Below, in pieces: positions 1 through 24,152 of a stretch of 35,493 nucleotides of DNA. The notes under the pieces are model-generated. The model was not told the DNA's origin and made no database searches. It saw only the letters and a program-made list of their open reading frames with translations. The position numbers were made by a program, and so were the translations under genes. Position 1 is the stretch's first letter. Each line of letters begins with the position of its first letter. This DNA comes from a virus, in IMG/VR virus record IMGVR_UViG_3300039098_000250, positions 1 to 35,493 of that record. The stretch is one strand, 5' to 3'.

Positions 1-1101
1 TCATTTGACATAGGAATTGACATATTTCTCTAATTTATCAGCACCAGTTGATCGCATGCCAGCTGTTACGAATCCGTATTGATCCAAGGTAAAGGCTGCG
101 GTATGATGACCAAGATTTTCTTGAACTGTTTTAACGTCCACTCCTGCTTGTAAAGATAATACTGCATAAGTATGGCGTAAATCATGAACGCGAAGTCCAG
201 GGAATCCAATTTGGGCACTAACGGTTTTTAGATGTTTATAAACACCATGGCCATTGATCGGACTCCCATCATCCCCACAAAATACAAGACTATGTTTATT
301 ATAATCAGGATCGCCAATCAGTAGTTTTAATCGTGCTTGATCAGATCGTTCACTTTTAATAATTCGGATCGCTGATGTTGGTAAAGAAACAGTTCGTATT
401 TTGTCATGCTTGGGGGTTCCAAACTTTACAGGATAGGCAGATACTAATTGTCGGTCAATAAGAATTGTTTTATTTGAAAAATCAACACGATCAAAGGTAA
501 GCCCAGTAAGTTCTGAGATCCTTAATCCAGTTAAAATTAAAAATGTAAAGATTGATGCATACCGATCATTCTCAGCAGCTTTATAAAATTTAGATAATTC
601 ATCTTCAGTTAAAGGCGTGATTTTAGGTTTTATTTTTTTGGGTAGGGTAATGCCCGTAGCAGGATTGATCCGTATCAATTTAGCAGATATAGCATCATCC
701 AAACATTTGTGTAAGGTCCCATGAATATTTCGTACCATTTTTTGAGATAAACCTTTATCTTTAAATAAACTTGTACAAAACTTTTGAATATCTGATTGCT
801 CAATGCTTTGAATCTGTTTATTGCCAAATGCAGGAATGATGTGAGTATTTAAATGACTGATATAACTCTTTTTTGTAGTTTCTTTAATTCCAACGAGATA
901 ACCTTTTTTCCAGTCCTCCACCCAGTGCTTAAATAGGGTCTTATCCGCTTTCACATAAGTTCCATCTTCTATTTGTGCAACAAGATCATAAGCTTTTTGC
1001 CTGCATTCCTTACTTGTTTTTCCATATACCGTTTTATACTTTCCGTCTGGTATGTGAATTTGAGTGCCAAATCGTCCATCTTTTCGTTTACTGATTTTCA
1101 T
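1..1101 (-). CDS. int: Phage tyrosine-recombinase integrase
   Basis: Catalyses site-specific integration (and, with a directionality factor, excision) of the phage genome through a covalent 3'-phosphotyrosine intermediate. The 366-residue protein has an N-terminal arm-binding region (about 1-55), a SAM-like core-binding domain (about 57-155) and a C-terminal catalytic domain (about 165-350). The catalytic residues are all visible: R194 in TGLRISEL, K231 in GTPKHDK, H306 and R309 in HDLRH, H332 in LGHH, and nucleophile Y342 in DQYGF. The ATG follows CTAGGAGG on the minus strand with good spacing. It is the outermost lysogeny gene and reads away from the repressor. The stop codon is the first base triplet of the window, so the adjacent att site would lie just outside. 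Family and activity are secure; the target site is unknown. Confidence 0.95.
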   Translation of the reverse strand: MKISKRKDGRFGTQIHIPDGKYKTVYGKTSKECRQKAYDLVAQIEDGTYVKADKTLFKHWVEDWKKGYLVGIKETTKKSYISHLNTHIIPAFGNKQIQSIEQSDIQKFCTSLFKDKGLSQKMVRNIHGTLHKCLDDAISAKLIRINPATGITLPKKIKPKITPLTEDELSKFYKAAENDRYASIFTFLILTGLRISELTGLTFDRVDFSNKTILIDRQLVSAYPVKFGTPKHDKIRTVSLPTSAIRIIKSERSDQARLKLLIGDPDYNKHSLVFCGDDGSPINGHGVYKHLKTVSAQIGFPGLRVHDLRHTYAVLSLQAGVDVKTVQENLGHHTAAFTLDQYGFVTAGMRSTGADKLEKYVNSYVK

Positions 1102-1124
1102 TTTTATTTACCTCCTAGAATTTT

Positions 1125-1140
1125 AGGCATAAAAATGCCT
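1125..1140. repeat. Inverted repeat in the integrase leader
   Basis: A perfect 6-bp inverted repeat AGGCAT/ATGCCT with a 4-bp AAAA spacer sits 24 bp upstream of the integrase start codon. In the integrase mRNA it would form a small hairpin just ahead of the ribosome-binding site, or it may be a protein-binding site. No function can be assigned. Confidence 0.4.
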
Positions 1141-1145
1141 GGCAG

Positions 1146-1174
1146 TTGTAAAACTCCAGGATATAAAGTATAAT
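1146..1174 (+). promoter_or_regulatory. Predicted sigma-70 promoter for a short plus-strand transcript
   Basis: TTGTAA (1146-1151) and a perfect TATAAT (1169-1174) are separated by exactly 17 bp. Transcription would start near 1181 and meet a strong terminator about 65 bases later. Both flanking genes are on the opposite strand, so this promoter does not serve a visible protein gene. Chance matches are possible in AT-rich DNA. Confidence 0.45.
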
Positions 1175-1207
1175 ATTTGTGATAAGTATATTGGGTTTAT
1201 ATCCTGG
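1156..1207. repeat. 12-bp inverted repeat upstream of integrase
   Basis: CCAGGATATAAA (1156-1167) and TTTATATCCTGG (1196-1207) are perfect inverted copies 28 bp apart. The left arm lies in the spacer of the predicted plus-strand promoter and the right arm downstream of its start point. Such a layout fits a dimeric regulator or a directionality factor bound at two sites, or a hairpin in the integrase leader. Which one applies is unknown. Confidence 0.5.
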
Positions 1208-1216
1208 TATATCAAA

Positions 1217-1251
1217 GCCGTTCTCATGTTCTAGCATGAGGGCGGTTTTTT
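1217..1251 (+). terminator. Intrinsic terminator between integrase and zinc-ribbon gene
   Basis: A 12-bp stem (1217-1228 with 1235-1246, including G-U pairs) with a six-base loop TTCTAG runs directly into a T tract on the plus strand. In the minus direction only three T residues follow the stem, so it is much the stronger on the plus strand, where no protein gene precedes it. Confidence 0.7.
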
Positions 1252-1269: not shown

Positions 1270-1674
1270 TTAAGGCAGTAAACCTAAAAATAATAATGAA
1301 ATTCCTAATGCTACAGAAACAATAGCGACAACAATTTTAGTAGTATTATCCATAGGCTTTTTAGCTATATATATATGCACATTTACAAGATACAACATGC
1401 CTAATGACCAAATAGATCCTATTATTGAGAAAAGAGATAAGTCGCCTCTCAGTACAAATGCAAGACAAGGGAATAAAATATATATTAGCGGAATATCACA
1501 GAGAATCGTTATTGCTATTTTAAGCGGCAATGGGAGCTTTCTCTTTTTTAAGGTTGAATCAACAATTTCAACTCTTTTAGCCCCAGGCATAAGATTGTCT
1601 AATTCTCCTACGCTTGCACCGCACTTTCCACAAAAGTTACCAGTTACTTCTTCTCCACAGTTTTTACAGAACAT
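1270..1674 (-). CDS. Zinc-ribbon membrane protein
   Basis: Small membrane protein of unknown role in the lysogeny module. It starts with a zinc-ribbon of the form CxxCG...FCxxCG (first 20 residues), followed by a short basic linker and three or four hydrophobic segments (about residues 50-77, 80-103 and 111-134). The zinc-ribbon would face the cytoplasm if the N-terminus stays inside. I place the start at the ATG behind GAGGTG rather than at the GTG six bases upstream, because that GTG is part of the ribosome site. It lies 76 bp downstream of the lipoprotein gene on the same strand and may share its transcript. A lysogenic-conversion role, such as a cell-surface or signalling change, is inference from position only. 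Confidence 0.75.
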
Positions 1675-1750
1675 TTTCACACCTCTTTCAAATTATGTTG
1701 TAGTACAATAGCGTTTATGTTGTTGTTATAATATTATCCAATCATATTTA

Positions 1751-2548
1751 TTAATAACCAACTTGTGTAACGCCGTATTCTGCTTGCTCATTGGTAAACC
1801 CGTCATGTTCTAATTGTTCGATTAATCCAGAACGCGAAAATTCCATAATATTCAAATACGCTTCAGATTTTTTTGCTGCTTGTTCATTCCAATCGGTATT
1901 ACAATTATCCGCTGCATACGTTGCCTCTTCAGTAGTAAATCCGTCATGTTCTAATTGTGCAATTAAGCCGATATGCGAAAATTCCATAATACTAAAATAT
2001 GCTTTAGCTTTTCCAATTGCATTTTCCTGCCCCAATGTTGGCTGTTTTGCTGCCGCCGCAATTCGATCTGCTAGTTCTTTGTCTGCTGCAACGCGCTCAG
2101 CTTTAATTTTCAATTCTTGATCTAGTTCTTCTTGGGTAGGTTCGATAGCTTCTATAGGAGCAGGGGGAGTGTAAGATTTTGCGATTTTTGAGAAATAACC
2201 GTTTGTTTTCACAAGAACCATCCCACTACCATACGTAAGTTCATCATCCTTGAAGGCTAGTATAGTAGATTCATTACTAAGAGAAATGATATTACCGTCA
2301 ATTGTATATTCACCCGAATTATTTTCTATAATGTTTGGTTCTTTTATATTGTTATAGGCCCGAGTATAAGAGCCGTTCTCATTTAACGTTAAATTACTTA
2401 TCAATTCACTATCAAATGCTCCCTTTTCACTTTGCAGCAATTCCCATTTTCCTGAAATTTTTTCATTCGTCAATTCGCTACTGCATCCAGAACCTAAAAT
2501 TAAAACTGATACTAACACCAGGATAAACAAAACTATTTTTCTTTTCAT
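1751..2548 (-). CDS. ltp: Ltp-family surface lipoprotein, probable superinfection exclusion
   Basis: Predicted lipoprotein of the lysogenic cell surface. Residues 1-21 are a type II signal peptide with lipobox LGSGC, giving lipidated C22. Residues about 28-115 resemble a small beta-rich lipocalin-like domain, about 140-168 are a charged alpha-helical linker, and the C-terminus holds two copies of an Ltp repeat (about 178-216 and 225-263), each with a core like IMEFS..GLI.QLEHDGF. Ltp proteins such as that of Streptococcus phage TP-J34 block DNA injection by related phages and are encoded in the same place, between integrase and repressor. The function here follows from the repeat family and position. 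It has its own promoter (2579-2607) and a strong TAGGAGG site. Confidence 0.85.
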   Translation of the reverse strand: MKRKIVLFILVLVSVLILGSGCSSELTNEKISGKWELLQSEKGAFDSELISNLTLNENGSYTRAYNNIKEPNIIENNSGEYTIDGNIISLSNESTILAFKDDELTYGSGMVLVKTNGYFSKIAKSYTPPAPIEAIEPTQEELDQELKIKAERVAADKELADRIAAAAKQPTLGQENAIGKAKAYFSIMEFSHIGLIAQLEHDGFTTEEATYAADNCNTDWNEQAAKKSEAYLNIMEFSRSGLIEQLEHDGFTNEQAEYGVTQVGY

Positions 2549-3448: not shown

Positions 3449-3682
3449 ATGGATGCAAATAAATTGAAGGGATTGATGGTAGAGAAAAAATATACACAAT
3501 TAAAATTGGCTAGAGAATTAAAATTGAGTGCACAATCTTTAAATGCAAAGCTTAATGGGCGCAATCAATTTACATTAAATGAAGTTGTTGAGATTTCAAA
3601 GATTCTTAGCATTGAAGATCCGAGAGATATTTTTTTTACGGGCGCCGTCCCAAATCCGCAACGTAAATCGCGTGCTAGCTGA
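3449..3682 (+). CDS. DUF739 family Cro-like regulator
   Basis: Small helix-turn-helix protein of 77 residues in the position of Cro, divergent from the CI-like repressor. The pattern LKGLMVEKKYTQ...A.EL..S.QSLN.KLNG...FTL.EV..I..IL matches DUF739, a phage XRE-like family. Helix-turn-helix spans about residues 14-44. The ATG at 3449 is chosen because GGAGG at 3436-3440 is spaced 8 bases from it; the ATG six bases upstream is too close to that site. Probable role is to bind the switch operators and favour lytic growth; this is family- and position-based. Confidence 0.85.
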   Translation: MDANKLKGLMVEKKYTQLKLARELKLSAQSLNAKLNGRNQFTLNEVVEISKILSIEDPRDIFFTGAVPNPQRKSRAS

Positions 3683-3707
3683 TTTAATTTAAGAAGGAGG
3701 AAACTAA

Positions 3708-3878
3708 ATGAACGATTTAATTAAATTTCGAGCGACAAAAAAAAACAATGATGAAACATCATTGTTTTTGGATGAATTTGAGTTAAGAGGCGTAACTGCT
3801 TACGGTTTACAAGTTACGCCAGATGGGTCTGAACTGACCTTGTCAATAGTTGTCAGCCCCCCAGTTGAGATTGAATAA
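3708..3878 (+). CDS. Small hypothetical early protein (56 aa)
   Basis: Unrecognised acidic 56-residue protein beginning MNDLIKFRATKK. It has a strong AAGGAGG site 8 bases before the ATG. The first 13 coding bases and the leader before them are nearly identical to those of the small gene at 4298, pointing to a local duplication. Its 3' end overlaps the minus-strand DUF2513 gene by 26 bp, and a strong hairpin terminator for the opposite strand lies within its coding sequence. That dual use makes me less sure it is always translated. Confidence 0.6.
   Translation: MNDLIKFRATKKNNDETSLFLDEFELRGVTAYGLQVTPDGSELTLSIVVSPPVEIE
3741..3769 (-). terminator. Intrinsic terminator of the DUF2513 gene, inside an opposing gene
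   Basis: Perfect 13-bp stem AAAAACAATGATG/CATCATTGTTTTT with a 3-base loop. On the minus strand it runs into a nine-T tract (complement of 3737-3745), about 85 bp past the DUF2513 stop codon. On the plus strand it ends in five T residues, so it could also attenuate the early operon. Confidence 0.7.
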
Positions 3879-23409: not shown

Positions 23410-23549
23410 GAGGTGATCCACTTATCTCGTCTTAAAGTACAGACGTTAAACAGGCTTATTTTTTATGCCTAAAATTTGACCGTGCCAATGTCGTAAAACT
23501 ATGGCCACTATGAGAGCGAACTCGTAAAAAGCGTAATGAAAGGAAGATT
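23410..23549 (+). ncRNA. Structured leader upstream of the scaffold gene
   Basis: 140-bp gap with no coding sequence. Short stems can be drawn: CGTCT/AGACG (23428-23432, 23441-23445), AGGC/GCCT (23452-23455, 23467-23470), GTGCCA with TGGCCAC (23482-23487, 23502-23508, one bulge) and GAG/CTC (23512-23514, 23521-23523). The GTG at 23414 behind a strong GGAGG opens only a 19-codon frame. The segment may be a cis-acting RNA that sets scaffold and capsid translation. Confidence 0.4.
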
Positions 23550-24152
23550 ATGAAACGTGAATTTTTAGAAGGCTTAGGTCTTGAAAAAGAAGTAGTTGAC
23601 AAAATTATGACGGTTAACGGTACCGATATTGAAAATCAGAAAGATGAAACTACAAAAGCTGAAAATAAATTGTCTGATATTCGGATACAGCTTAAGACAG
23701 CAAATACAACCATTACCGATTTAAAGAAATCAAATGGGGATAATGAAACGTTACAAACGACGATTAAGGATCATGAAGCGACGATTGAAAAATTAAAAAA
23801 TGATGCATCAGCCAAAGAATTTGATTTAGCACTGGAATTAGAACTTGTGAAATCAAAAACACGGAATACAAAAGCGCTCAAAGCGGTGCTTGATCTAGAA
23901 AAGATTAAGCAAAAAGACGATGGGAGCTTTGAAGGATTAGAAGATCAACTAAAAGAAAAGATGGAAAAAGAAAGTTATTTATTTGAAACAGGAGCAAATC
24001 AGACGATCTTTAAACCCAAAGGTGGTGAAGGTGGCTCAGGGATCAATCCTTTTGCGAAGGATACATTTAACTTAACAGAGCAAGGAAAGCTATATAAAGA
24101 AAACCCTGCACAGGCTAAAGAGTTAGCAATTGCTGCAGGAGTAAAAATTTAA
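23550..24152 (+). CDS. Capsid scaffolding protein (Gp20 type)
   Basis: 200-residue scaffold of the phage minor structural Gp20 family (PF06810). It opens with MKREFLEGLGLEKEVVDKIM, continues as a long coiled coil (about 25-100), and ends in a Gly-rich then basic/acidic helix-turn-helix tail (NPFAKDTFNLTEQGKLYKENP) that likely contacts the coat protein. It directs coat assembly and leaves the head. It is directly followed by the capsid gene. Confidence 0.9.
   Translation: MKREFLEGLGLEKEVVDKIMTVNGTDIENQKDETTKAENKLSDIRIQLKTANTTITDLKKSNGDNETLQTTIKDHEATIEKLKNDASAKEFDLALELELVKSKTRNTKALKAVLDLEKIKQKDDGSFEGLEDQLKEKMEKESYLFETGANQTIFKPKGGEGGSGINPFAKDTFNLTEQGKLYKENPAQAKELAIAAGVKI

Follow-up and report, generated by a model that had tools for sequence, protein, structure and literature searches.

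A predicted antisense small RNA upstream of a phage integrase gene and a candidate transcription attenuator of the integrase

The segment between the integrase and its upstream gene

The window analyzed here is the whole of IMG/VR virus record IMGVR_UViG_3300039098_000250 (35,493 bases). It opens with a minus-strand gene for a tyrosine integrase, and the segment between this gene and the co-oriented gene upstream of it holds (i) the Shine-Dalgarno sequence of the integrase, (ii) a 16-nt palindrome, (iii) a plus-strand promoter, (iv) a predicted small RNA that ends in an intrinsic terminator, and (v) a perfect 12-bp inverted repeat whose arms, L and R, lie 28 nt apart (Table 1).

Table 1. Features at the integrase end of the window
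Feature	Positions	Strand	Basis and remarks
Tyrosine integrase, 366 aa, presumed target	1-1101	-	ORF; PF00589, E 1.1e-23; phrog_1 integrase
Shine-Dalgarno AGGAGG of the integrase	1111-1116	-	Sequence reading
16-nt palindrome AGGCATAAAAATGCCT (H0)	1125-1140	-	Leader-RNA hairpin, bases shared with A'; sequence reading and folding
Proposed attenuator hairpin L':A' (CCTGGAGTT / AACTgCCAGG, one bulge), then CAUUUUUAU	1138-1160	-	Folding, covariation
Small-RNA promoter TTGTAA-17-TATAAT	1146-1174	+	Sequence scan, 10/12 matches; same place in 37 members
Left arm (L), 12-bp inverted repeat	1156-1167		Inverted-repeat search
Predicted small RNA, ~70 nt	1181-1251	+	Folding and comparison; 5' end inferred from the -10 box
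Hairpin 1 of the predicted small RNA	1186-1212 (1186-1195 with 1203-1212)	+	Folding
Right arm (R), 12-bp inverted repeat	1196-1207		R':L', proposed antiterminator of the integrase leader; inverted-repeat search, folding
Intrinsic terminator of the small RNA	1214-1251	+	Hairpin 1214-1249, 16 pairs, T-run; sequence scan and folding
Upstream gene, 136 aa, co-oriented with the integrase	1270-1680	-	ORF; weak PF12773 match; possible read-through source

The original prediction had read at this place a plus-strand promoter with 17-bp spacing, a plus-strand terminator with no gene in between, minus-strand genes on both sides, and an inverted repeat straddling the start point, all of which are present. 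Its zinc-ribbon neighbor exists as a minus-strand gene, but the corresponding Pfam match is weak (20.2 bits) and falls below the cut-off. The predicted transcript, folded as 1181-1255, reaches -30 kcal/mol (z -6.6), a value equaled by none of 200 shuffles. By score, promoter-like matches in the first 3 kb of the window are at chance level (12 versus 12.9 expected) and terminators are slightly above it (3 versus 1.4 expected). The promoter and RNA of the window are lifted above chance by conservation, since 36 other loci show the promoter with its spacing and an RNA of two hairpins. With this support from comparison, the small RNA of about 70 nt proposed for the plus strand very probably exists, with ends near 1181 and 1251.

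The original prediction is right in these respects and understates the case; it mentions neither the antisense orientation of the segment relative to the integrase leader nor the terminator-like hairpin facing the integrase. Read in the direction of the integrase, the leader comprises the complement of the small-RNA terminator, R', L', A', a U-run, the ribosome site, and the start codon. Across members, L':A' makes a GC-rich hairpin followed by (C)AUUUUUAU, which is the form of an intrinsic terminator; the window has AUUUUU at this point, and its hairpin was missed by a simple terminator scan. The U-tract of the proposed attenuator corresponds to an A-run (1131-1135) inside the H0 palindrome, and the -35 of the small-RNA promoter sits in the attenuator hairpin, mostly in its loop.

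The best Rfam 15 score for the window segment, 23.6 bits, is below the gathering score of 59 for that family, so that no family is matched, and the related element L201 likewise matches no Rfam 15 family at the gathering threshold. BLAST of the window segment returned no DNA matches in E. coli genomes, named phages, or plasmids. The sole Rfam family above threshold in the window lies away from 1146-1251: a GP20-b RNA (RF03003) at 23477-23535 on the plus strand (45.7 bits, gathering score 36.2), just upstream of an ORF at 23550.

Related elements ahead of recombinase genes

Among 49 whole records of related phages, one strong match to the segment is found (79% over 142 nt, E 1.8e-28). The integrase beside it is merely 26% identical to that of the window, which indicates that the segment is conserved independently of the enzyme. 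Patterns drawn from the shared core reached further viral contigs, and BLAST led to plasmid p1_EUCAMar of Eubacterium callanderi DSM 3468 (NZ_CP132156.1), which has a similar element (3603-3736) ahead of a serine recombinase. Two BLAST matches were rejected as elements, H101 because it sits inside an annotated nuclease gene and H108 because it has part of the palindrome only. Peptide patterns yielded no useful integrase relatives, and searching viral and genome contigs for exact copies of the 12-bp inverted repeat led to no relatives.

The collected loci contain 63 palindrome places, 38 of which passed the promoter pattern; all but one of these (L218) have a long frame directly beside them. 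L218 was dropped for lack of that frame, as were L245 and L258, which are copies of L224 and L247 by eye and by frame. L201 and L209 failed the pattern and were added after inspection, while L205 (a copy of L201), two palindromes lacking the promoter (L233 and L253), and 20 other pattern-failing places stayed outside the set. The palindrome GGGCATAAAAATGCCC is accompanied in L253 by a short hairpin with a T-run in place of the promoter, and L233 looks like an internal deletion. With duplicates removed, the set holds 37 members (the window and 36 relatives), and statistics use 35 of them, L208 and L247 having been judged by eye to be nearly identical to L201 and L238. Most search patterns included the palindrome and the U-run, the conservation of which is thus partly selected.

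In every member the element lies directly 5' of a recombinase gene, which bears out the conservation in related prophages that had been named as a check on the small RNA. The recombinases form two similarity clusters, of 28 (tyrosine) and 9 (serine) proteins, and fall into 31 clusters at 50% identity. Pfam assignments for 10 of the 36 relatives agree with this division: six from the second cluster are Resolvase (PF00239) and four from the first are Phage_integrase (PF00589), the family that the window integrase also matches. The spacer between -35 and -10 is 17 nt long in 33 of the 37 members and 18 nt in the other 4. An extended -10 (TGn before the -10) occurs in 27 members and is absent from the window; the terminator hairpins of L226 and L241 lack a clear T-run.

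For the small RNA to be complementary to the integrase leader, transcription would have to read through from the upstream gene, which is co-oriented with the integrase. Of 35 members that could be assessed, 33 have as their longest frame starting within 400 nt upstream one that runs in the direction of the recombinase; in 25 of these 33 it lies within 50 bases of the element, and in the two exceptions (L235 and L243) a shorter co-oriented frame abuts. The upstream gene of L209 reads by eye as a helix-turn-helix repressor. Read-through from lysogeny genes into the recombinase is plausible on this gene order. The right arm was considered as the site of a minus-strand promoter for the integrase, a reading rejected because several members do not keep its -10 (by eye).

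An independent sample of recombinase upstream regions was assembled to lessen the bias of a palindrome-based search, using virus records found by their terminase or polymerase and recombinases located by Pfam. Fifty of 159 loci were used, long contigs being favored, and G024 was left out because it was already known. Of the 50 records, 25 have PF00589 and 10 have PF00239, giving 37 places and 36 examined upstream regions. A divergent promoter followed by a terminator within 40-110 nt occurs in 13 of these 36 regions, versus a mean of 0.3 and a maximum of 1 in 20 rounds of 2-mer block shuffling and 2 on the opposite strand. Scoring and reading by eye differ in places: L289 is positive by eye and uncounted by the script, and for L277 the script scored a different promoter from the one read by eye. 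In L281, L282, L290, and L296 the promoter falls inside the longest called frame, which leaves the true start and the exact layout uncertain.

Upstream of a further integrase, L268 (G025:C1:7400-8900) has GGGTACAAAAATACCC adjoining a simple hairpin that is flanked on either side by T-runs; it lacks a small-RNA promoter and is perhaps an unregulated version of the module.

Pairing in the small RNA and in the integrase leader

When all 37 members were aligned with MAFFT and folded as a consensus, the palindrome alone was recovered, probably because the helices are shifted between members, and folds were therefore computed per sequence. The 35 non-redundant predicted RNAs each form a hairpin and a terminator hairpin, with a mean z of -5.0 (range -2.4 to -7.4; 60 mononucleotide shuffles each). 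The hairpin-1 region is a near reverse complement of the promoter spacer and -10, and its sequence varies between members with complementarity to their own left arm kept. R:L pairing amounts to -21.1 kcal/mol with a member's own arm versus -15.2 kcal/mol with the arms of other members, and L:A pairing to -13.3 versus -11.5 kcal/mol; none of 500 permutations does as well in either case, in a test that ignores kinship among members. L and A make up a second inverted repeat that flanks the -35, is member-specific (30 distinct stems among 35), and averages 7.5 pairs and -13.2 kcal/mol. At the sequence level, comparison thus establishes the architecture of the small RNA, its covarying pairings, and its position before recombinases.

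The palindrome lies farther out than the stem around the -35. Over the 37 members, its three outer pairs include two mismatches and seven cells that form G.U when the integrase strand is read, with no such cell for the small-RNA strand. Between the arms, wobble-type substitutions are biased in the direction opposite to that expected of a leader RNA (55 on the small-RNA strand versus 28 on the other), a count on which the hairpin of the small RNA itself has a confounding effect. The L:A stem shows nearly equal numbers on the two strands (10 versus 7).

Leaders folded up to the U-run form, when free, a mean of 13.4 R'L' pairs and 3.2 L'A' pairs across the 35 members; blocking the part complementary to the small RNA raises L'A' to 7.5 pairs. 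In the window, the free leader is predicted to have 15.5 R'L' pairs, with H0 holding A' while R':L' forms, and L'A' goes from 0.2 pairs free to 7.4 blocked, followed by CAUUUUUAU. For the window, predicted folding and covariation together support an antiterminator and an intrinsic terminator that exclude each other ahead of the integrase. The bulge in the window's L':A' stem is a weak point. Nine of the 35 leaders (L207, L216, L223, L224, L225, L232, L239, L248, and L259) have more than five L'A' pairs even when free, and three more (L201, L226, and L229) have four to five, so that a switch in those members would have to rest on folding kinetics.

Leaders from the independent sample are less uniform. 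Six of the 13 positives were folded, and two behave as the model predicts, keeping the pairing logic with other sequences: L'A' rises from 3.1 to 6.9 pairs on blocking in L195 and from 0.4 to 14.7 in L285 (G018:C1:20200-21500). L285 is a variant in which, by its predicted fold, the L' freed by the small RNA would cover the integrase Shine-Dalgarno instead of forming a terminator. Three leaders form a terminator-like hairpin also when free, namely, L270 (palindrome GGGTATAAAAATACCC; 8.0 to 8.4 pairs), L277 (8.1 to 12.5), and L286 (U6; 8.0 to 11.8). In L294, L'A' drops from 3.7 to 0.3 pairs on blocking, and a different hairpin forms before a U-run. Little R:L pairing is seen in L277, L282, L287, L288, L289, L291, and L296. 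As predicted from these sequences, the divergent small-RNA module is common in the sample and the exact switch is not uniform.

The segment is likely an antisense-RNA-controlled transcription attenuator of the integrase. Minus-strand transcription from the upstream lysogeny genes would yield a leader that carries R', L', A', the U-run, and the ribosome site. When the small RNA is absent, R' would pair with L' as the antiterminator, H0 would hold A', and integrase would be made. When present, the small RNA, synthesized from the plus strand of the same DNA, would pair with R' and its flank; with R' occupied, L' would be free to pair with A' in a GC-rich hairpin before AUUUUU, and transcription would end ahead of the integrase. 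Integrase might then be produced early in infection, before much small RNA has built up, and be turned off once lysogeny is established.

Slightly more probable than not is a broader reading, namely, that this is an undescribed and widespread integrase switch of Firmicutes phages: a module of about 130 bp, with the antisense promoter embedded in the attenuator that it controls, reused before tyrosine and serine recombinases, with termination or Shine-Dalgarno masking as output, and providing integrase at infection and not in lysogeny without a dedicated protein. How a lysogen keeps its integrase off, with the enzyme still on hand for infection and excision, is not well understood outside lambda-like phages. 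If true, many phages would share a single testable answer in the form of an RNA module that stands before recombinases of unrelated kinds; such a module could account for the antisense RNAs seen in Streptococcus pyogenes prophages and would supply natural families of RNA attenuators. Dormant phages may commonly keep their integration enzyme off in this manner, given that a similar layout precedes enzymes that differ widely.

Alternative readings and known systems

The original prediction placed the small RNA under regulator control; on that view the inverted repeats would be operators through which a repressor or the integrase controls the promoter, and the perfect arms centered on the start point, as well as three CCNGG sites that vary in concert when the window is compared with its nearest relatives (by eye), fit it. 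The spacing of the arms varies, however, from -2 to 17 nt between aligned blocks, and both the arms and the -35 stem differ between phages yet stay complementary, which looks like RNA pairing in the integrase leader and not like a protein operator. One-base bulges in some stems and the unrelated classes of the recombinases also speak against a protein site. The inverted repeat is probably not an operator, and control through it is quite unlikely. A trans-acting small RNA with targets elsewhere in phage or host, incidentally placed by the integrase, would equally possess a defined promoter, hairpin, and terminator. This reading is very unlikely given that long frames stand beside nearly all pattern-passing places, that those of the kept members all belong to the two recombinase clusters, and that hairpin 1 varies while remaining complementary to its own left arm. 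That promoter and terminator arose by chance, with no functional RNA, would suit the chance-level promoter score in the first 3 kb, but the compensatory changes, the conservation across 37 members, and the frequency of the module in the independent sample relative to shuffles make it hardly credible. The segment was also rejected as attP, since the element accompanies unrelated recombinases and sits 5' of the gene.

Plain cis-antisense silencing, in which pairing of the small RNA with the leader leads to cleavage or to a translation block without any terminator switch, is unlikely rather than remote. The small RNA would be fully complementary to a read-through leader, silencing alone is what has been proposed for S. 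pyogenes (PMC6431027), and the alternative pairing of L285 suggests that outputs other than termination may exist. Silencing of this kind leaves unexplained, in window-type members, the covarying L:A stem around the -35 and the U-run behind it, both of which belong to the proposed attenuator.

The nearest parallel comes from S. pyogenes prophages, where RNA-seq detected antisense small RNAs upstream of the integrase (SP119_SR034, SR071, SR086, and SR106), which, according to the authors, may help silence the integrase in lysogeny (Rosinski-Chupin et al. 2019, PMC6431027). Like them, the window RNA is intergenic, antisense, and upstream of a prophage integrase; it is predicted here, whereas those were detected. 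The sections of that report on these RNAs give no mechanism beyond silencing, and the comparison is one of description and position (PMC6431027). Phages 315.1 and 315.3 show, by eye, the int start, a divergent extended -10 promoter, a hairpin, and a terminator. They lack the palindrome GGGCATAAAAATGCCC, and layout alone is shared with the window, again by eye.

In the plasmids pT181 and pIP501, control relies on mutually exclusive antiterminator and terminator pairings in the leader. RNAIII of pIP501 is described as causing transcriptional attenuation of repR (PMC4981023; pIP501 also in PMC5415839), and the window element resembles these systems, as described there, in having a convergent antisense RNA that would act on a leader. 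It differs in its target, a phage recombinase instead of a replication initiator, in having the small-RNA promoter inside the attenuator, and in length (about 70 versus 136 nt). The Rfam family ctRNA_pT181 is not among the window matches, and L201 scores 17.5 bits with it against a gathering score of 56. The element would thus work like pT181/pIP501 control and is by sequence not a member of those families. Other small antisense RNAs of mobile elements, such as IS10 RNA-OUT, lambda OOP, and the P4 CI RNA, differ from the window element in targets and layouts.

STAXI, EFASI, and Lacto-int are, as presented in PMC2864571 and PMC12370729, RNA-like motifs near integrase genes or in phages. STAXI and EFASI, as outlined there, represent other lineages or structures, and neither the window element nor that of L201 matches an Rfam family; Lacto-int appears in the text of these papers without an Rfam number and is set beside the element by description only. 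A literature search on integrase-associated or integrase-controlling RNAs, judged in part by titles and abstract openings and with most subscription journals outside its reach, gave, besides PMC6431027, nothing on this element or on an integrase attenuator among the matches listed. Searching the literature for the palindrome strings found no paper, nor did a search for fixed expressions denoting antisense RNA of the integrase.

Beyond the upstream gene, the window encodes an Ltp-family lipoprotein (1751-2548, minus strand). It contains two Ltp stretches, which correspond to a 110-nt DNA repeat of 75% identity, and has PHROG matches to "superinfection exclusion"; on the E. callanderi plasmid, too, the element is followed by a gene for an Ltp lipoprotein. 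Farther along, after a Cro-like gene, a perfect 13-bp inverted repeat with a 3-nt loop (AAAAACAATGATG / CATCATTGTTTTT) occupies positions 3741-3769.
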